This document shows, piece by piece, positions 785 to 9,940 of a stretch of 64,000 nucleotides of DNA. A program made the position numbers and the translations under genes. Every line of letters starts with the position of its first letter. Within the stretch, counting starts at the first letter, position 1. Under the pieces are notes generated by a model. That model was not told the DNA's origin and ran no database searches. It saw only the letters and a list, made by a program, of their open reading frames with translations. The stretch is from Streptococcus suis. Lineage in GTDB: Bacteria; Bacillota; Bacilli; Lactobacillales; Streptococcaceae. The stretch spans positions 930,001 through 994,000 of the forward strand of contig NZ_CP082205.1 in NCBI RefSeq assembly GCF_019856455.1. Direction: 5' to 3'.

Positions 785-1654
785 ATGAAAGGTATTATTC
801 TAGCAGGTGGTTCAGGTACACGCTTGTATCCTTTGACGCGCGCAGCTTCAAAACAGTTGATGCCAATTTACGATAAACCAATGATTTATTATCCATTGTC
901 AACATTGATGTTGGCTGGAATCAAAGATATTTTGATTATTTCAACTCCGCAAGATCTACCACGTTTTAAGGACATGCTTGGTGATGGTTCTGAATTGGGA
1001 ATTTCTCTCTCTTATGCTGAACAACCAAGTCCAGATGGTTTGGCGCAAGCCTTCATTATCGGTGAAGAATTTATCGGTGATGACAATGTGGCTTTGATTT
1101 TGGGGGATAACATCTATCATGGAAATGGTTTGACCAAGATGTTGCAACGGGCGGCTAGCAAAGAAAAAGGTGCGACAGTATTCGGTTACCAAGTGAAAGA
1201 TCCGGAACGTTTTGGTGTCGTAGAATTCGACGCAGACATGAATGCCATTTCTATCGAAGAAAAACCAGAGGTACCAAAATCAAACTTTGCAGTTACTGGT
1301 CTTTATTTCTATGACAATGATGTTGTGGAGATTGCGAAAAATATCAAGCCTTCACCTCGTGGCGAGTTGGAAATCACAGATGTCAACAAGGCTTACTTAG
1401 AACGCGGCGACTTGTCTGTTGAGCTTATGGGCCGTGGATTTGCCTGGTTGGACACTGGTACGCATGAAAGCCTCTTGGAAGCTGCACAGTACATCGAAAC
1501 GGTTCAACGTTTGCAAAACGTTCAAGTGGCTAACTTGGAAGAAATTGCTTACCGCATGGGCTACATTACAAAAGAACAAGTGCATGAATTGGCGCAGGCA
1601 CTTAAGAAAAATGAATACGGGCAATACTTGCTCCGTTTGATTGGAGAGGCCTAA
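785..1654 (+). CDS. rmlA: Glucose-1-phosphate thymidylyltransferase
   Basis: First enzyme of dTDP-L-rhamnose synthesis: glucose-1-phosphate plus dTTP gives dTDP-glucose in the cytoplasm. The N-terminal nucleotide-binding signature GGSGTRLYP is at residues 8-16, followed by a Lys in [11 protein letters not shown], and EEKPEVPKS lies mid-protein. At 289 residues it is the usual length for RmlA. It opens the rml gene set and its stop overlaps the rmlC start (TAATG), implying translational coupling. Its product feeds the rhamnan operon that begins at 12700. Confidence 0.97.
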
Positions 1655-2247
1655 TGACAGAAAAATTTTTCGGTAAAACACCAGCAGCTCGCCCAGTTGA
1701 AGCTATTCCAGGAATGTTAGAATTTGACATTCCTGTTCATGGCGACAACCGTGGCTGGTTCAAGGAAAATTTCCAAAAGGAAAAAATGTTGCCTCTCGGC
1801 TTTCCTGAAAGCTTCTTTGCAGAAGGGAAATTGCAGAATAATGTTTCTTTCTCCCGCAAAAACGTTCTTCGTGGTCTTCACGCAGAGCCTTGGGATAAAT
1901 ACATTTCAGTAGCAGACGGCGGTAAGGTTTTGGGAACTTGGGTGGATCTACGTGAAGGCGAAACCTTCGGTAATACCTACCAAACCGTTATCGATGCTTC
2001 AAAAGGTATCTTCGTTCCGCGCGGAGTAGCCAATGGTTTCCAAGTCTTGTCAGATTTCGTGGCTTACAGTTACTTGGTCAACGACTACTGGGCTTTGGAG
2101 CTTAAGCCTAAGTATGCCTTCGTCAACTACGCTGACCCGAGCCTTGACATCCAGTGGGAAAACCTAGAAGAAGCAGAAGTTTCAGAAGCAGATAAAAATC
2201 ACCCACTCCTCAAAGACGTCAAGCCTTTGAGAAAAGAGGACCTCTAA
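1654..2247 (+). CDS. rmlC: dTDP-4-dehydrorhamnose 3,5-epimerase
   Basis: Cupin-fold epimerase that converts dTDP-4-keto-6-deoxyglucose to dTDP-4-keto-rhamnose. Visible family elements are RGWFKENF near residue 32, the RGLHAEPWDK segment with the catalytic His near residue 75, and the later FVPRGVANGFQVL and YLVNDYW segments. Length 197 residues, as in streptococcal homologues. The start overlaps the rmlA stop, and the stop overlaps the start of the next ORF (TAATG). Confidence 0.95.
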   Translation: MTEKFFGKTPAARPVEAIPGMLEFDIPVHGDNRGWFKENFQKEKMLPLGFPESFFAEGKLQNNVSFSRKNVLRGLHAEPWDKYISVADGGKVLGTWVDLREGETFGNTYQTVIDASKGIFVPRGVANGFQVLSDFVAYSYLVNDYWALELKPKYAFVNYADPSLDIQWENLEEAEVSEADKNHPLLKDVKPLRKEDL

Positions 2248-2732
2248 TGTTTCAAGCCTTTTTGGAAATAGCAGAGCAGTTAAACAAGTTAGGAATCACT
2301 CCCTTGTTAATGGGCTCAGTTGGTTTGGAAAGGCGCACAGGGAGGGACTGGCAGGCAGGAGATTTAGATATTCATGTTCCAAGTAATCCACGTGGCTGGG
2401 AAGCCCCAGACGATGAACGGATTTATCAGGTGGACGCCTTGATTTCTATGATGAACCAACTAGGCTATGTCCTTGTTGACCGTCATGAACATGAATTTCA
2501 TAAAGACGGCCTATCTGTTGAATTCGGAGGCCTACATTCACTGCCTGAATTTGCAGGTGTGGAATTAGACGAACTGGAAGAGCTGGAAACAGCAGGTGTT
2601 CGTTATTACCTACCGACACTTGAGCAATACCTGAAAATCTACCAAGCCTCTTCAAAAGATTCCTACCGAGCAGAAAATAACAATCAAAAAGACTTTGCGA
2701 AGATTGCTTACTTGAAAGAAGTATTGAAGTAG
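2247..2732 (+). CDS. Small nucleotidyltransferase-like protein in the rml operon
   Basis: A 161-residue protein, translationally coupled to rmlC, not one of the four standard rhamnose enzymes. The segment LLMGSVGLE followed about 15 residues later by GDLDIHVP resembles the G-S and D-x-D core of minimal nucleotidyltransferase-fold proteins, which would bind metal and nucleotide. I know of no assigned substrate. Its position suggests a role linked to rhamnose or nucleotide-sugar metabolism, but that is inference from context. A 188-bp gap with an inverted repeat separates it from rmlB. Function unproven. Confidence 0.7.
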   Translation: MFQAFLEIAEQLNKLGITPLLMGSVGLERRTGRDWQAGDLDIHVPSNPRGWEAPDDERIYQVDALISMMNQLGYVLVDRHEHEFHKDGLSVEFGGLHSLPEFAGVELDELEELETAGVRYYLPTLEQYLKIYQASSKDSYRAENNNQKDFAKIAYLKEVLK

Positions 2733-2771
2733 TCTGGTAATGTAAGAGGGCGAGCATTGCGAGCCAATAGC

Positions 2772-2890
2772 GATAGTTTCCGCCGTAGTGAAAATACATA
2801 ATCTTGCAGGGAATTTTTGAAACCTTAGGTTCAAAATTTAGCCATGAAACCGGAGGTTTGCTGGCGTCTCCACTGCCTAAGGAAACTATC
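2772..2890. repeat. Intergenic element bracketed by a 10-bp inverted repeat
   Basis: GATAGTTTCC at 2772-2781 is the exact reverse complement of GGAAACTATC at 2881-2890. The 99 bases between hold a second fold around 2807-2828 (TTTGAA...TTCAAA). It lies between the nucleotidyltransferase-like ORF and rmlB. It may be a small mobile repeat or a structured leader for rmlB; no coding sequence was seen. Confidence 0.4.
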
Positions 2891-2896
2891 AACTAA

Positions 2897-3967
<1,071 letters not shown>

Positions 3968-4021
3968 GACTATTAAAGGCTAGGGCTCTTGCTCAAGCCT
4001 TTCTTGAAATAAGGAGCAAAT

Positions 4022-4873
4022 ATGATTTTAATTACAGGTGCAAATGGTCAGTTGGGTACAGAATTGCGTTATCTCTTGGATGAGCGTGGTGTTGAGTATG
4101 TGGCCGCTGACGTAGCAGAAATGGATATCACGGATGCAGAGAAAGTAGATGCTTTCTTTGAAGATGTAAATCCAAGTGTTGTTTACCACTGTGCAGCCTA
4201 CACAGCAGTTGATATGGCTGAAGACGAGGGTAAGGAACTCAACTACAAGATTAACGTAACAGGTTCTGAGAATGTTGCCAAGGCAGCAGCCAAATACGAT
4301 GCGACCCTTGTCTATATCTCAACAGACTATGTCTTCAATGGTGATTTGCCAGTCGGTCAAGAGTGGCAAGTTGATGACCAGCCAGATCCACAATCTGAAT
4401 ATGGTTGTACCAAGCGCTTGGGTGAGGAAGCAGTTGAGAAATTTGCTGACAAATTCTACACTGTTCGTACAGCTTGGGTCTTTGGTAACTACGGTAAAAA
4501 CTTTGTTTTCACCATGCAAAATCTTGCGGAAACTCGCGATACTTTGACGGTTGTCAATGACCAACACGGTCGCCCAACTTGGACACGCACACTTGCGGAA
4601 TTCATGGTGCACTTGGTGGACACCAAGCAAGCATTTGGTTACTACCATTTGTCAAACGATGCAGCAGAAGATACGACTTGGTTTGACTTCGCGACGGAAA
4701 TCCTCAAGGATACCAACACCAAGGTATTGCCAGTGGATTCTAGCCAGTTCCCAGCCAAGGCAAAACGTCCATTCAACTCAACCATGAGCTTGGATAAGGC
4801 AAAGGCGACAGGTTTTGTCATCCCGACCTGGCAAGAAGCTTTGGAAGCATTCTATAAGCAAGAAAAGAAATAA
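4022..4873 (+). CDS. rmlD: dTDP-4-dehydrorhamnose reductase
   Basis: Last step of dTDP-L-rhamnose synthesis, an NAD(P)H-dependent reduction in the cytoplasm. The TGANGQLGTELR cofactor loop is near the N-terminus, STDYVFNGD is mid-protein, and the catalytic YGCTKRLGE provides YxxxK. Length 283 residues, as expected. An AAGGAG site precedes the ATG. The next gene follows 16 bases later with no terminator, so it may be co-transcribed. Confidence 0.96.
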   Translation: MILITGANGQLGTELRYLLDERGVEYVAADVAEMDITDAEKVDAFFEDVNPSVVYHCAAYTAVDMAEDEGKELNYKINVTGSENVAKAAAKYDATLVYISTDYVFNGDLPVGQEWQVDDQPDPQSEYGCTKRLGEEAVEKFADKFYTVRTAWVFGNYGKNFVFTMQNLAETRDTLTVVNDQHGRPTWTRTLAEFMVHLVDTKQAFGYYHLSNDAAEDTTWFDFATEILKDTNTKVLPVDSSQFPAKAKRPFNSTMSLDKAKATGFVIPTWQEALEAFYKQEKK

Positions 4874-4889
4874 TCTACAGGAGATGTGT

Positions 4890-5933
4890 ATGAAAAAGAA
4901 AGCGATTGTTAAGCCGTTGTTGACGTCAGCAATCCTTCTTGCTTTACTAGGAGGTGCTATATTACCGTACGGATCTGTTCCAGTTGTAGTAGCAGAGACA
5001 AGTCAAAGTACGACCTATCATTTAACTGATGATGAAAAAGTTGCCGTACGTGAATATATTCAAGCTAAAATGACTATCGATATGCAAGAATATAGATTGG
5101 CGTTTCTTGAGGGAATGATGGAAGAAATGGCTTCGGGTAGTGCTGAAGTTGCATGGGATGAAGAAATTGCAGACTTGAAGGCAAACTTAACAGCAGAGCA
5201 AGTTGTTGTTTTAGATGAACTCAAAGCAAATTTAATTGGTAACATAGCCCAACATTACCATTACTTATTTGAGACACTTACAGTCGCTGGAAAAAGTGGA
5301 AGAGAAGAAGCGACGGCTATAGTTTCTAAGTACGAGTCTGAAGATGATGCAAGTACTCCTGAAGCAGAATTGGCTGCATTAAAATACGCTAGAGAAGTTA
5401 TTGTTGAACTACTGAATAATGAGTCGGCAGCGATTGATACTTATATTGCTTATGCAGAAGCAAATGGACAAGAATTAGCTGGATTATTGGAAAGTGGAAA
5501 CTCTAATTTAGAATTTATTACATCTGCAACTATAGGATATGGTCAAGCTCTTGCAATTGCTTCGCAACCAAAATTTCCGTATGACTTTTCAGAAATGGAC
5601 CGACAGATTGCAGAACTAACTGCTAGTCTACAATCAAAAGTCGAGGATAAAAGTGCAGCTAATATTGAAAATACTGGGGCACAAACAAGTCAAAGCGTTA
5701 CAAATGACTCAAATGATTTGCAAGATGTTTCAGGTCAAGGGGACGGTCAGATTTCTGATGCAGCTACAGGAAAAGGCAGTATTTCCGAAGCAGGTCAGAA
5801 AAAGGTCATACCAAATGATAAAGCTAAAGTATTACCAAAAACCTCAGGGAAATCTGGTCTTCCACTAGCTGTGGTAGGACTCATAACAATTTTTGCTGGT
5901 TGGTTAGTGACAAAGAAGCAAGAAGAAAAATAG
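4890..5933 (+). CDS. Secreted, sortase-anchored helical surface protein
   Basis: Predicted 347-residue surface protein. The start at 4890 was chosen because GGAG ends six bases upstream and MKKKAIVKPLLTSAILLALL begins a typical signal peptide, ending near VVVAET. The mature part is acidic, rich in Ala, Glu and Leu, and probably mostly helical. A Ser/Gln/Gly/Asp-rich linker follows (about residues 245-310). The C-terminus carries a sorting signal: LPKTS, a hydrophobic stretch, then KKQEEK. The final Ser of LPKTS departs from the usual LPxTG Gly. No enzymatic domain was recognised. The gene lies directly after rmlD and before a wall hydrolase. Confidence 0.8.
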   Translation: MKKKAIVKPLLTSAILLALLGGAILPYGSVPVVVAETSQSTTYHLTDDEKVAVREYIQAKMTIDMQEYRLAFLEGMMEEMASGSAEVAWDEEIADLKANLTAEQVVVLDELKANLIGNIAQHYHYLFETLTVAGKSGREEATAIVSKYESEDDASTPEAELAALKYAREVIVELLNNESAAIDTYIAYAEANGQELAGLLESGNSNLEFITSATIGYGQALAIASQPKFPYDFSEMDRQIAELTASLQSKVEDKSAANIENTGAQTSQSVTNDSNDLQDVSGQGDGQISDAATGKGSISEAGQKKVIPNDKAKVLPKTSGKSGLPLAVVGLITIFAGWLVTKKQEEK

Positions 5934-6006
5934 AAGATAAGTGTAATTGCATCTATTTTGAGAAATATAGTTGTTTTTACATGTGAAATATATAAAGGAG
6001 ATATTT

Positions 6007-9000
6007 GTGAACAAAAGAACATTGTTATTTCTTTCTTTGTGTGCATCCGCTTTGAATGCTCAGCTTGTTCAAGCGGATATGGTAAATGCCCCATCTAGTC
6101 AAGTTTCTTCATCTCAGGTTGCTGAAACTGGCGGGCAGCTATCTGTCGTTGATGAGGCTGGTCAGATTAAAGCTATTCTATCGAACATTCAAGGGGAAAT
6201 TATTGGTGTTACAGCCCAGTTTAGCTCTGAAACAAATAGCGGCATTACTGTCACATTCTCAATGGATGAGCAGGGTAGATATGTAGCGGTTTTAGATCGG
6301 TCTGCATTTGCGGAGGAAGACCAAGTCTTTTCGCTGAAGTTAACAGCACAATTAACAGATGGAAGTTTTCAGACCTTATCAGATTATAGTTTCGAGTGGA
6401 AGAAGGATGTCGTAAGCGCGGCTGAGAAGCCTACTGCTTTGGATAATAGTGATGCAACTCCGTCTAAAATTGAGGAGAAAGCAACTTCGACTACTACAAG
6501 AACAACGGTTAATTCTAATTTGACAGCAGGTGCAACAAGCAGTACTTCGAATTTGCTGACAAGAAGTATTTCAGGAAGTTCGAATGGCTCTACAAGTGTT
6601 CCAAGTGCTCGAGTCAGTACAGCTTCCAGTTCGGTCAATGTTACACAACCTACAGGCACCATCACAATTGAAAATCGTAACGATTCCCAAGGTACCTTCG
6701 ATGTTCGTGTTACTAATGTTTCATCACCGAAAGATATAGCAAGTGTTGTTTTACCCACTTGGTCACAGACGGATGATTTACGTTGGTATGAAGCAAAGCG
6801 TCAAGCAGACGGAAGTTATAAATTAACTGTCAATAAGAAAGACCATAAGTATCGTACAGGTACCTACACGGTTCATCTATATTATAAGGATTCAAATGGT
6901 GGTTTGACAGGTGCAGGTGGTACAACGACTTATTTATCAGAAGCGAAGCCAACAGGTACCATCACAATTGAAAATCGTAACGATGCCCAAGGTACCTTCG
7001 ATGTTCGTGTTACTAATATTTCATCGCCGAAAGATATAGCAAGTGTTATTTTACCCACTTGGTCACAGACGGATGATTTACGTTGGTATGAAGCCACTCG
7101 TCAGTCAGATCGCAGCTATAAGTTAACTGTTAATAAGAAGGACCATAAGTATCGTACAGGTACCTACACGGTTCACTTATATTATAAGGACTCAAGTGGT
7201 GGTCTGACAGGTGCAGGTGGTACAACGACTCATTTATCAGAAGTGAATCCGACAGGTACCATCACAATTGAAAATCGTAACGATGCCCAAGGTACCTTCG
7301 ATGTTCGTGTTACTAATGTTTCATCGCCGAAAGATATAGTAAGTGTTATTTTACCGACTTGGTCACAGACGGATGATTTACGTTGGTATGAAGCCACTCG
7401 TCAGTCAGATGGCAGCTATAAGTTAACTGTTAATAAGAAGGACCATAAGTATCGTACAGGTACCTACACGGTTCACTTATATTATAAGGACTCAAGTGGT
7501 GGTCTGACAGGTGCAGGTGGTACAACGACTCATTTATCAGAAGTGAATCCGACAGGTACCATCACAATTGAAAATCGTAACGATGCCCAAGGTACCTTCG
7601 ATGTTCGTGTTACTAATGTTTCATCGCCGAAAGATATAGCAAGTGTTATTTTACCCACTTGGTCACAGACGGATGATTTACGTTGGTATGAAGCCACTCG
7701 TCAGTCAGATGGCAGTTATAAGTTAACTGTTAATAAGAAGGACCATAAGTATCGTACAGGTACCTACACGGTTCATCTATATTATAAGGATTCAAATGGT
7801 GGTTTGACAGGTGCAGGTGGTACAACGACTTATTTATCAGAAGCGAAGCCAACAGGCACCATCACAATTGAAAATCGTAACGATGCCCAAGGTACCTTCG
7901 ATGTTCGTGTTACTAATGTTTCATCGCCGAAAGATATAGCAAGTGTTATTTTACCTACTTGGTCACAGACGGATGATTTACGTTGGTATGAAGCAAAGCG
8001 TCAAGCAGACGGAAGTTATAAATTAACTGTCAATAAGAAGGATCATAAGTATCGTACAGGTACCTACACGGTTCATTTATATTATAAGGATTCAAATGGT
8101 GGTTTGACAGGTGCAGGTGGTACAACGACTCATTTATCAGAAGTGAAGCCAACAGGCACCATCACAATTGAAAATCGTAACGATGCTCAAGGCACCTTCG
8201 ATGTTCGTGTTACTAATGTTTCATCACCGAAAGATATAGCAAGTGTTCTCTTACCTACCTGGTCCCAGTCAGACGATATACGTTGGTATGAAGCCACTCG
8301 TCAGTCAGATGGCAGTTATAAGTTAACTGTTAATAAGAAGGACCATAAGTACCGTACAGGTACCTACACGGTTCATTTATATTATAAGGATTCAAATGGT
8401 GGTTTGACAGGTGCAGGTGGTACAACGACTCATTTATCAGAAGTGAAGCCAACAGGCACCATCACAATTGAAAATCGTAACGATGCTCAAGGCACCTTCG
8501 ATGTTCGTGTTACTAATGTTTCATCACCGAAAGATATAGCAAGTGTTCTCTTACCTATCTGGTCCCAGTCAGACGATATACGTTGGTATGAAGCCACTCG
8601 TCAGTCAGATGGCAGTTATAAGTTAACTGTTAATAAGAAGGACCATAAGTACCGTACAGGTACCTATACGGTTCACTTATATTATAAGGATTCAAATGGT
8701 GGTTTGACAGGTGCAGGTGGTACAACGACTCACTTATCAAATCCGTCGGCACAGCGATCCTACACAGTCTATATTGACCCAGGGCATGGAGGGCGAGACT
8801 CGGGCGCTTCTTACGGTGGCGTACATGAAAAAAATCTTGCATTGTCTGTTTCAAATAAGTTGCGTGAAAATCTCTTGCAATATGGAATCAATGTTTTGAT
8901 GACCCGTACAGGTGATTATGATGTAGACTTCAAAACAGAGAGGTCACGAATGACGAATGCAAGCAACGCAGACTTATTTATTAGTATCCATTTTAATGCG

Positions 9001-9366
9001 ACGGGAGCAGGAGTTTCGAATGCGACTGGTATCGAAACATACTGGTATCAATACGATCCGGAATACCAACCTAAAATTAATAAAGAAATGCATAATAACC
9101 CTACTCGTTTAGCTGAAAGTGAGATTTTAGCCAACAAGGTTCAGGAGAGTTTAATTAAAGAAACAGGTGCAGTTAACCGTGGCGTAAGAAGAGAAACTTT
9201 TGCAGTCCTTCGCGAGACAGCAATTCCTGCCATTCTAGTGGAGCTAGGATTTATGGATAATCCTTCGGAATTACAAGTTATCAAACAAGATTCTTATCAC
9301 ACTCGCCTTGCGAAAGCATTGGCACAAGGCGTAATGAATTGGTATGGTGCTGTTGAGGGAAAGTAG
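6007..9366 (+). CDS. Secreted N-acetylmuramoyl-L-alanine amidase with seven Bsp-like repeats
   Basis: Predicted wall hydrolase of 1119 residues cutting the MurNAc-L-Ala bond. GTG 6007 is chosen because AAGGAG lies six bases upstream and the protein then opens with a signal peptide (NKRTLLFLSLCASALNAQLVQA). A Ser/Thr-rich linker (about 130-215) leads to seven tandem repeats of 100 residues, each beginning PTGTITIENRND, resembling the GBS Bsp-like domain. The C-terminus is an Amidase_3 domain: IDPGHGG and HEKNLAL (zinc His and Glu), SIHFNA (zinc His) and ILVELGF (catalytic Glu). It stops at TAG 9364, right after the heptamer GGGAAAG. A glucosaminidase domain continues in the -1 frame. Confidence 0.92.
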   Translation: MNKRTLLFLSLCASALNAQLVQADMVNAPSSQVSSSQVAETGGQLSVVDEAGQIKAILSNIQGEIIGVTAQFSSETNSGITVTFSMDEQGRYVAVLDRSAFAEEDQVFSLKLTAQLTDGSFQTLSDYSFEWKKDVVSAAEKPTALDNSDATPSKIEEKATSTTTRTTVNSNLTAGATSSTSNLLTRSISGSSNGSTSVPSARVSTASSSVNVTQPTGTITIENRNDSQGTFDVRVTNVSSPKDIASVVLPTWSQTDDLRWYEAKRQADGSYKLTVNKKDHKYRTGTYTVHLYYKDSNGGLTGAGGTTTYLSEAKPTGTITIENRNDAQGTFDVRVTNISSPKDIASVILPTWSQTDDLRWYEATRQSDRSYKLTVNKKDHKYRTGTYTVHLYYKDSSGGLTGAGGTTTHLSEVNPTGTITIENRNDAQGTFDVRVTNVSSPKDIVSVILPTWSQTDDLRWYEATRQSDGSYKLTVNKKDHKYRTGTYTVHLYYKDSSGGLTGAGGTTTHLSEVNPTGTITIENRNDAQGTFDVRVTNVSSPKDIASVILPTWSQTDDLRWYEATRQSDGSYKLTVNKKDHKYRTGTYTVHLYYKDSNGGLTGAGGTTTYLSEAKPTGTITIENRNDAQGTFDVRVTNVSSPKDIASVILPTWSQTDDLRWYEAKRQADGSYKLTVNKKDHKYRTGTYTVHLYYKDSNGGLTGAGGTTTHLSEVKPTGTITIENRNDAQGTFDVRVTNVSSPKDIASVLLPTWSQSDDIRWYEATRQSDGSYKLTVNKKDHKYRTGTYTVHLYYKDSNGGLTGAGGTTTHLSEVKPTGTITIENRNDAQGTFDVRVTNVSSPKDIASVLLPIWSQSDDIRWYEATRQSDGSYKLTVNKKDHKYRTGTYTVHLYYKDSNGGLTGAGGTTTHLSNPSAQRSYTVYIDPGHGGRDSGASYGGVHEKNLALSVSNKLRENLLQYGINVLMTRTGDYDVDFKTERSRMTNASNADLFISIHFNATGAGVSNATGIETYWYQYDPEYQPKINKEMHNNPTRLAESEILANKVQESLIKETGAVNRGVRRETFAVLRETAIPAILVELGFMDNPSELQVIKQDSYHTRLAKALAQGVMNWYGAVEGK
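6649..8740 (+). repeat. Seven tandem 300-bp coding repeats
   Basis: Units of exactly 300 bp start near 6651, 6951, 7251, 7551, 7851, 8151 and 8451. Each encodes a 100-residue module with the ITIENRND, GTFDVRVTN, LRWYEA and KKDHKYRTGTYTVHLYYKD segments. Differences are few and patchy: K/N before PTG, KRQAD versus TRQSD, LPTWSQTDD versus LPTWSQSDD. This points to recent duplication and exchange between units, so unit number may vary between strains. Confidence 0.95.
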
Positions 9367-9446
9367 AAATTGCAGGTACAGGTATTGAAACAGGAAAACT
9401 TTCTAATGATCAAAAAAGTTTCATAGCTAATCTAGTACCTGCAATT
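9357..9446 (+). promoter_or_regulatory. Candidate programmed -1 frameshift element
   Basis: The amidase ends GAG GGA AAG TAG, so its last codons form the slippery heptamer G GGA AAG (9357-9363) in the correct phase, immediately before the stop. Four bases later a perfect 12-bp inverted repeat begins: AATTGCAGGTAC (9368-9379) pairs with GTACCTGCAATT (9435-9446). A second 6-bp stem, TGAAAC (9386-9391) with GTTTCA (9418-9423), lies inside. Slipping back one base gives ...EGK-VEIAGTGIETGK..., which runs straight into the glucosaminidase domain. The same heptamer serves the phage lambda G/GT frameshift. Confidence 0.7.
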
Positions 9447-9872
9447 GTGCAAAGTTCAAAAGCTAATTCTATCCTTTCGAGCGTCATGTTATCTCAAGCC
9501 ATCCTAGAAAGTGCATGGGGAACGTCATACTTGGCGACTCATGGGAATAATCTTTTTGGCATCAAAGCGGGTGCTGCATGGACGGGTGATACAATTGAAA
9601 TCATTACCAATGAATACCGTGATGGTGAGAAGAAGCAAGAAAAGCACTTGTTTAGAAAATATAATTCATGGAATGAAAGTGTAGCAGACTATGCTAAGTT
9701 CTTTACCTCTACTCCGTGGAGAATAAAAAATTACCAGAGTTTCAGAGAGGCAACTGATTATCAACAAGCGATTCTTGCGCTAAGACAATCAGGATATGCT
9801 ACTGATCCGAAATATGGTGAAAAATTACGATCAATTATCGAGAATTACAAGCTTTATCTTTTAGATAATTAA
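9366..9872 (+). CDS. Glucosaminidase domain, probably the -1 frame extension of the amidase
   Basis: Endo-beta-N-acetylglucosaminidase (Glucosaminidase/FlgJ-like) domain of about 168 codons. The catalytic Glu is in SQAILESAWG, followed by HGNNLFGIKA and a conserved YNSWNESVADYAKFF segment. The domain's first helix (SFIANLVPAIVQSS) is encoded upstream of the only nearby start, GTG 9447, and no signal peptide is present. Independent translation would therefore give a truncated, non-secreted protein. Frameshift fusion to the upstream amidase would give a bifunctional secreted autolysin of about 1286 residues. A simple one-base deletion in an ancestral fusion gene is the alternative. Confidence 0.75.
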   Translation, partial: EIAGTGIETGKLSNDQKSFIANLVPAIVQSSKANSILSSVMLSQAILESAWGTSYLATHGNNLFGIKAGAAWTGDTIEIITNEYRDGEKKQEKHLFRKYNSWNESVADYAKFFTSTPWRIKNYQSFREATDYQQAILALRQSGYATDPKYGEKLRSIIENYKLYLLDN

Positions 9873-9904: not shown

Positions 9905-9940
9905 AAATAGCCTTGCTCAAAAACGAGCAAGGCTATTTTT
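9905..9940. terminator. Bidirectional terminator between convergent genes
   Basis: A 14-bp perfect stem (9905-9918 with 9925-9938) is flanked by A and T runs. It serves the autolysin gene on plus and the glycerol-phosphate transferase gene on minus. Confidence 0.9.

Follow-up and report, generated by a model that had tools for sequence, protein, structure and literature searches.

A candidate programmed -1 ribosomal frameshift between the amidase and glucosaminidase of a Streptococcus autolysin gene

An autolysin gene in two frames

The window analysed here, a stretch of 64,000 nucleotides of Streptococcus suis DNA (assembly GCF_019856455.1, contig NZ_CP082205.1, positions 930,001 to 994,000 of the forward strand), carries an autolysin gene whose amidase (PF01520) and glucosaminidase (PF01832) domains are encoded in adjacent frames of one locus, the two being fused in frame in five relatives. 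From comparison of its sequence with that of other species, this gene of pig-associated Streptococcus seems to be expressed as two secreted proteins, one with a single enzyme and a longer one with both, and we consider it very probable that they arise through programmed -1 ribosomal frameshifting (PRF) of the heptamer-plus-hairpin type at the junction. The host belongs to the S. suis complex of Streptococcus, and the named strains nearest to it at the locus are S. suis 10581 and YS56, then YS161, HCJ31, 2187, SSHP-D and DE406T. Locus labels (L…) denote individual copies of the gene, the window copy being L002. The features of the locus are as follows (ORF, open reading frame):

6007..9366, + strand: zero-frame product, a GBS_Bsp-like repeat/Amidase_3 autolysin; ORF from GTG 6007 to TAG 9364-9366
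6640..8740 (approximate limits, estimated from the translation), + strand: seven GBS_Bsp-like repeats (PF08481, 7 stretches)
8767..9336, + strand: Amidase_3 (N-acetylmuramoyl-L-alanine amidase) domain (PF01520, 168.8 bits)
9357..9363, + strand: slippery heptamer G GGA AAG in zero-frame phase; the amidase ends GAG GGA AAG TAG
9364..9366, + strand: zero-frame stop TAG directly 3' of the heptamer (TAG, TAA or TGA in relatives)
9368..9379, + strand: putative stimulatory stem, 5' arm (perfect 12-base-pair pairing)
9386..9423, + strand: inner stem 9386-9391/9418-9423 (6 base pairs) with its loop, from RNA folding
9435..9446, + strand: putative stimulatory stem, 3' arm (perfect 12-base-pair pairing with 9368-9379)
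9363..9872, + strand: -1 frame ORF, linker plus glucosaminidase, 169 codons; stop TAA 9870-9872
9438..9854, + strand: Glucosaminidase (GH73) domain (PF01832, 125 bits, E 3e-36, -1 ORF residues 26-164)
9907..9940, + strand: terminator-like perfect 12-base-pair hairpin with a T run, 3' of the -1 ORF

An earlier sequence-only reading of this stretch had proposed a slippery heptamer in the right phase before the amidase stop, a perfect 12-base-pair stem four bases further on with a 6-base-pair stem inside it, and a -1 frame that runs without interruption into a glucosaminidase domain, and all of these were found again at the positions listed. The features by which a -1 PRF site is recognized, namely an X XXY YYZ heptamer, a nearby stop and an open -1 frame that leads into a real domain, occur together at the locus. 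The zero-frame ORF is preceded by AAAGGAG at 5994-6000, and its N-terminus resembles a signal peptide, hence the product is predicted to be secreted (both the start and the signal peptide were assigned by inspection). The glucosaminidase of the -1 ORF is the sole match in its own genome when that genome is searched with this domain. A simple terminator scan found no terminator between the amidase and glucosaminidase ORFs; the hairpin at 9907-9940, which the same scan did not report, is the probable end of the transcript.

Conservation of the slippery site and of the -1 frame

We searched 284 Streptococcus genomes, one per species, at the DNA level and obtained matches in 57, of which 18 hold a closely aligned copy of the gene, giving a compared set of 19 copies since one genome (G109) carries two. 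The named S. suis strains (L032-L038) show the same junction frames as copies of the set and were not counted again. In this set the glucosaminidase lies in the -1 frame in 13 copies, that is, in the window's clade (L002, L003, L004, L005, L077 and L078) and in L027, L087, L083, L082, L085, L086 and L088; it is fused in frame in five (L006, L081, L084, L079 and L080) and decayed in one (L007). Thirty loci were scanned apart, three of which (L028, L029 and L088) are copies already in the set, while 25 hold only an amidase of 48-56% identity and two (L010 and L013) a glucosaminidase followed by an amidase. A glucosaminidase search matched 36 of the 284 genomes, and no further -1 layout was seen in the six added loci opened out of the 30 listed.

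GGGAAAG stands at the end of the amidase in all 13 of the -1-frame copies, down to 64% amidase protein identity, and is absent from all five in-frame fusions. The zero-frame stop follows it directly in 12 of the 13, and in L082 comes one codon later (TGG TAA). The motif itself is not rare, for GGGAAAGTRR occurs at 21 sites in the 2.56-Mb single-contig genome against 18 for the reversed control pattern; of the 21, the one at 9357 alone stands at the end of an open frame exceeding 100 codons and leads on into a -1 frame exceeding 60. When we searched the 284 genomes for the W-Y-G-x-V-[GE]-G-K pattern with any Gly-Lys codons, 16 sites were found in 15 of them, and 14 of these read GGGAAAG (the 13 -1-frame copies and the decayed L007), the remaining two being in-frame fusions. 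From the codon usage of window ORFs of at least 200 amino acids, the chance that Gly-Lys is written GGA AAG is about 0.09 per independent lineage. Moreover, by inspection the linkers that follow the stop cannot be aligned between lineages although the heptamer is kept throughout, which suggests that it is retained on its own account. Taken together these comparisons give us high confidence in the candidate slippery site.

The five nearest species, at 96-99% DNA identity, align with the window copy without a gap over 1116 bases (L003, L004, L005 and L077) or 1091 bases (L078). Frame-restoring insertions in close strains, which the sequence-only reading had named as a finding that would overturn it, were thus not seen in this comparison of one genome per species, and fusions occur only in more distant copies. 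Known proteins agree with this, the amidase C-terminus among the 120 listed of 2441 protein matches reading ...NWYGAVEGK in 117 and ...EWYGAVGGK in three.

The -1 ORF is open in all 13 copies, at 169-186 codons, and its ratio of nonsynonymous to synonymous substitution rates (dN/dS) is 0.066 for L027/L087, 0.13 for L085/L086 and 0.16-0.20 for the window copy against L004, L005 and L077, which on these estimates indicates that it is under purifying selection. An AlphaFold model of the -1 ORF (predicted local distance difference test score 93.7) shows helix 1 spanning residues 15-35 and helix 2 spanning residues 39-50. The sequence-only reading had held that the first helix begins ahead of any start codon, and in the window the first start is GTG 9447 (residue 29), within helix 1. 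L005 and L077 likewise have their first start within helix 1, and for L003, L004, L078 and L083 it lies in helix 2 or next to it; with no start codon before the domain in these seven of the 13 copies, an internal start is excluded there by layout. In the other six (L082, L086, L027, L087, L085 and L088) a start codon does precede helix 1.

Several observations were made alongside this comparison. G109 carries two diverged autolysin genes (L003 and L027), both with GGGAAAG plus stop and with the glucosaminidase in the -1 frame. The S. suis DE406T copy (L007/L038), which looks like a decayed one, keeps the heptamer and lacks the adjacent stop and the stem, and its glucosaminidase contains a stop and a shift. 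In L010 and L013, from other Streptococcus species, the reversed domain order is encoded in a single frame. The seven GBS_Bsp-like units at 6640-8740 are near-identical and of about 300 base pairs each, and homologous S. suis proteins among the matches listed vary stepwise in length (e.g. 623-1035 amino acids), which suggests gain and loss of these units.

The downstream RNA stem

In the window the stem 9368-9379/9435-9446 begins 4 nucleotides past the heptamer, with 12 perfect pairs and 55 nucleotides between its arms, and the 97-nucleotide RNA has a folding energy of -23 kcal/mol (z -3.1), a stability matched by 2 of 200 dinucleotide shuffles. For each copy we then considered ungapped helices with a 5' arm beginning 3-14 nucleotides past the heptamer, and compared the strongest of them with 200 dinucleotide shuffles. 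Strong stems, starting 4-10 nucleotides past the heptamer and equalled in 0 or 1 of the 200 shuffles, were found in 10 of the 13 -1-frame copies and in none of the five fusions: 12 base pairs at 4 nucleotides in L002, L003, L004 and L078, 9 at 7 in L077, 10 at 9 in L027, 13 at 7 in L087, 11 at 8 in L083, 12 at 7 in L082 and 11 at 6 in L088. The five fusions and L007 have no helix above their shuffles (20-66 of 200 equal). With helices starting 3-10 nucleotides downstream of 7976 overlapping window positions as background, a helix as strong as that of the window copy occurs at 12 positions, and the range for the eight strong copies without L003 and L078 is 8-43, as compared with 1377-5450 for the fusions. 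Folding of the whole region gave z of -4.2 to -6.0 for L002, L003, L004, L078, L027, L083 and L088 and -2.1 for L077, with about -1.5 for L007 and -0.3 to -0.9 for the fusions.

Dinucleotide shuffles alter the encoded protein, and in our strictest control the synonymous codons of the -1 ORF were instead permuted 1000 times with the protein kept the same. Equal helices then arose in 2 permutations for L027, 0 for L087, 4 for L083, 0 for L082 and 0 for L088, and in 109-895 for the five fusions, which confirms that the stems of these five -1-frame copies go beyond coding constraint. No stem sequence is shared between the window's clade, L027/L087, L082/L083/L085/L086, and L088; within these groups pairing is kept through one-sided changes from A-U to G-U. 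The loops of the stems measure 30-78 nucleotides, and the 37-78 nucleotides in L002, L027, L082 and L085-L088 are long for frameshift hairpins. As an intrinsic terminator the window hairpin was rejected, for it has 55 nucleotides between its arms and no T run after them, and none was reported there by the terminator scan.

The sequence-only reading had looked to orthologues for conservation of heptamer, stop and stem, with compensatory changes in the last. For heptamer and stop this was borne out in 13 of 13 copies; for the stem it holds in part, in 10 of 13 against shuffles and in five against the protein-preserving permutations, and the expected two-sided compensatory changes did not appear. 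Our confidence in the window's own stem is accordingly moderate, and stimulation by it is putative.

A recoding model, its rivals and known systems

We propose that most ribosomes would read GAG GGA AAG and stop at TAG to give the secreted repeat/amidase protein, and that a fraction of them, probably slowed by the downstream hairpin, would slip back one letter at the heptamer, with the P-site tRNA-Gly on GGA and the A-site tRNA-Lys on AAG re-pairing with GGG and AAA. After such a slip GTA would be read next and translation would continue through the glucosaminidase, so that one mRNA may yield a set ratio of amidase to amidase-glucosaminidase with a common N-terminal signal peptide and repeats. 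A further pause may come from the immediate stop; L082 shows that its adjacency is not required. Genes for tRNA-Gly(UCC) and tRNA-Lys(UUU), the latter in at least two copies, are present in the genome. Measurements in Escherichia coli place G_GG.A_AA.G with the most efficient heptamers (PMC4066793), and G_GGA_AAG is described as highly shift-prone in that species (PMC5009743). The ratio may serve to balance the cleavage of glycans against that of peptides as the wall is turned over. In this form the proposal of one gene with two products, made in the sequence-only reading, is supported by the comparison.

A number of observations weigh against this model. With regard to the RNA, the helices of L085 and L086 (8 base pairs at 8 nucleotides, 16 of 200 shuffles equal) and of L005 (6 at 10, 29 of 200) are weak, and reach background counts of 487, 364 and 1307 of 7976, respectively. 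Whole-region z is low in L087 (-0.6), L082 (-1.2), L085 (-1.4), L086 (-0.7) and L005 (-0.1), and the codon permutations equal the helix in 41 and 59 of 1000 cases for L085 and L086, in 78-100 for five copies of the window's clade (89 for L002) and in 204 for L005. The window copy's stem alone is thus not beyond what its protein sequence allows, and it is for the window's clade that stimulation by a stem is least strongly suggested. No two-sided compensatory change was seen among the -1-frame copies, and of the 12 pairs of the window-clade stem three are lost in L005 and one in L077. Shine-Dalgarno-like motifs (GAGG, GGAG, AGGA, GGNGG and AGGKG) are absent 6-17 nucleotides upstream in all 13 copies. 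Concerning the -1 ORF, dN/dS reaches 0.54 in L002/L003, the closest pair, where six codons are changed, and exceeds that of the amidase (0.016-0.092) in every pair computable for both; moreover, five species have the enzymes fused in frame. Finally, a tRNA-Lys(CUU) gene is also present (L169, at 2472740-2472980 of the window's own genome), and one expects this tRNA to grip AAG more tightly. E. coli, in which AAG is highly shifty, has one lysine tRNA (PMC5009743), and because of tRNA-Lys(CUU) the shift rate cannot be transferred from that species.

The in-frame fusions, together with the decay in L007 and the looser constraint on the -1 ORF than on the amidase, would also fit an ancestral in-frame fusion broken by a one-base indel, with the glucosaminidase left as a dead remnant. 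We regard this as highly improbable, for the identical frame break and heptamer recur in 13 copies that span 99% DNA identity to 64% amidase protein identity, in every one of which the -1 ORF has stayed open, with purifying selection upon it. The trees likewise bear on this point: on that of the glucosaminidase, fusions L084, L006 and L081 stand beside the frameshift copy L082 with good support, and the other two, L079 and L080, adjoin the window's clade (93/94), so that the fusions occupy two places among the frameshift copies and at least three changes are needed. The poorly resolved amidase tree takes four changes of the frameshift label (with an outgroup without it) or three of the fusion label. 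Both trees have many open forks and their roots are not firm; they are most simply read as showing an ancestor with the frameshift, in whose descendants fusions arose later.

If the locus held two separate genes, translation of the glucosaminidase would begin internally, through reinitiation or coupling at the stop of the amidase. This would fit the six copies with a start ahead of helix 1, where L082 and L086 open the -1 frame with GTG and L027, L087, L085 and L088 have a start further on, and the fact that the -1 ORF stands alone in the protein database as a 145-amino-acid protein (a cluster of 401 members). Such an enzyme would have no signal peptide in any of the 13 copies and would not reach the wall, in seven of them the first start lies within the fold as described above, and the invariant heptamer is left unexplained; we hold an internal start to be quite improbable. 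Scarcely credible, in our judgement, is a phase-variable (contingency) locus in which the length of the short G/A run switches the fusion on and off within a population. The junction is indeed a G run followed by an A run and some species are in frame, but slipped-strand variation as a rule takes longer runs than the 3-5 present here, the amidase ends in Gly-Lys in the five nearest species and in 120 of 120 listed proteins (of 2441), and the downstream stems would find no explanation.

Other candidates were tried and rejected. Transcriptional slippage was discarded on inspection, as the heptamer is not accompanied by a long run of A or T. Viral contigs hold only 4 distant amidase relatives (27-30% identity), which does not suggest a phage origin. 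As to the same layout in other genera, all 38 distant loci (L039-L076) are without a relative of the glucosaminidase in the flanks fetched.

Returning to the programmed frameshift, we lean slightly towards a broader view, in which an old recoding switch that predates the split of the S. suis complex determines in what ratio one-enzyme and two-enzyme autolysin occur at the cell surface; its slippery site would be frozen and its stimulatory RNA rebuilt from one lineage to the next. Fusion would probably have abolished the switch at least twice and decay once, and the switch may respond to the balance of tRNA-Lys(UUU) and tRNA-Lys(CUU). The 13 frameshift, five fusion and one decayed copies form a natural comparison set for the origin, drift and loss of frameshift signals, and the model predicts an unannotated secreted product that is amenable to mass spectrometry. 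A surface autolysin of this kind has been studied in S. suis as an amidase and adhesin, and a second catalytic domain may have gone unnoticed in it, since annotation divides the gene where the frame shifts. The Atl of S. suis serotype 2, an autolysin of the same kind whose sequence was not matched to this gene, is described with GBS Bsp-like and MurNAc-LAA domains only, and neither glucosaminidase nor frameshift occurs in the main text of that report (PMC9377611). Among the matches listed in the open-licence literature, titles and abstract starts gave no report of frameshifting in a chromosomal autolysin, and the main text of PMC3711429 does not mention autolysin, amidase, glucosaminidase, suis or cell wall.

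Thus -1 PRF as a kind, the heptamer and the domain pair are known as such, and what is new is the unexpected host gene, an autolysin. In wall genes whose frame is restored in expression, transcription slippage at long poly(A) runs corrects decay, whereas here the shift would be ribosomal and at a heptamer. To our knowledge few cases of functional -1 frameshifting in non-mobile bacterial genes exist. In Bacillus subtilis cdd the shift site adjoins a stop as well. This -1 frameshift, at CGA AAG, has been called incidental and gives only an extended protein; like the autolysin, cdd is a Gram-positive chromosomal gene with AAG as the last shift codon, but it has no full heptamer and gains no domain (PMC5009743). 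Escherichia coli dnaX and copA are also chromosomal genes with -1 frameshifting (PMC5009743). In these the frameshift leads to a shorter product, in the autolysin to a longer one.

The staphylococcal Atl comprises amidase and glucosaminidase as one secreted protein that is cleaved after secretion. As an in-frame fusion with an amidase of another family it yields its enzymes in equimolar amounts, whereas here the ratio would be set by slippage. The tail chaperone site of phage lambda G/GT has the very heptamer G GGA AAG, as the sequence-only reading had noted. There the gene is one of phage assembly and the extension binds the tail protein, whereas in the autolysin the extension would equip a secreted enzyme, encoded on the chromosome, with a further catalytic domain. 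Lambda G/GT makes two products with a common N-terminus in a set ratio (PMC5009743), and a common N-terminus is likewise what the model predicts for the two forms of the autolysin.
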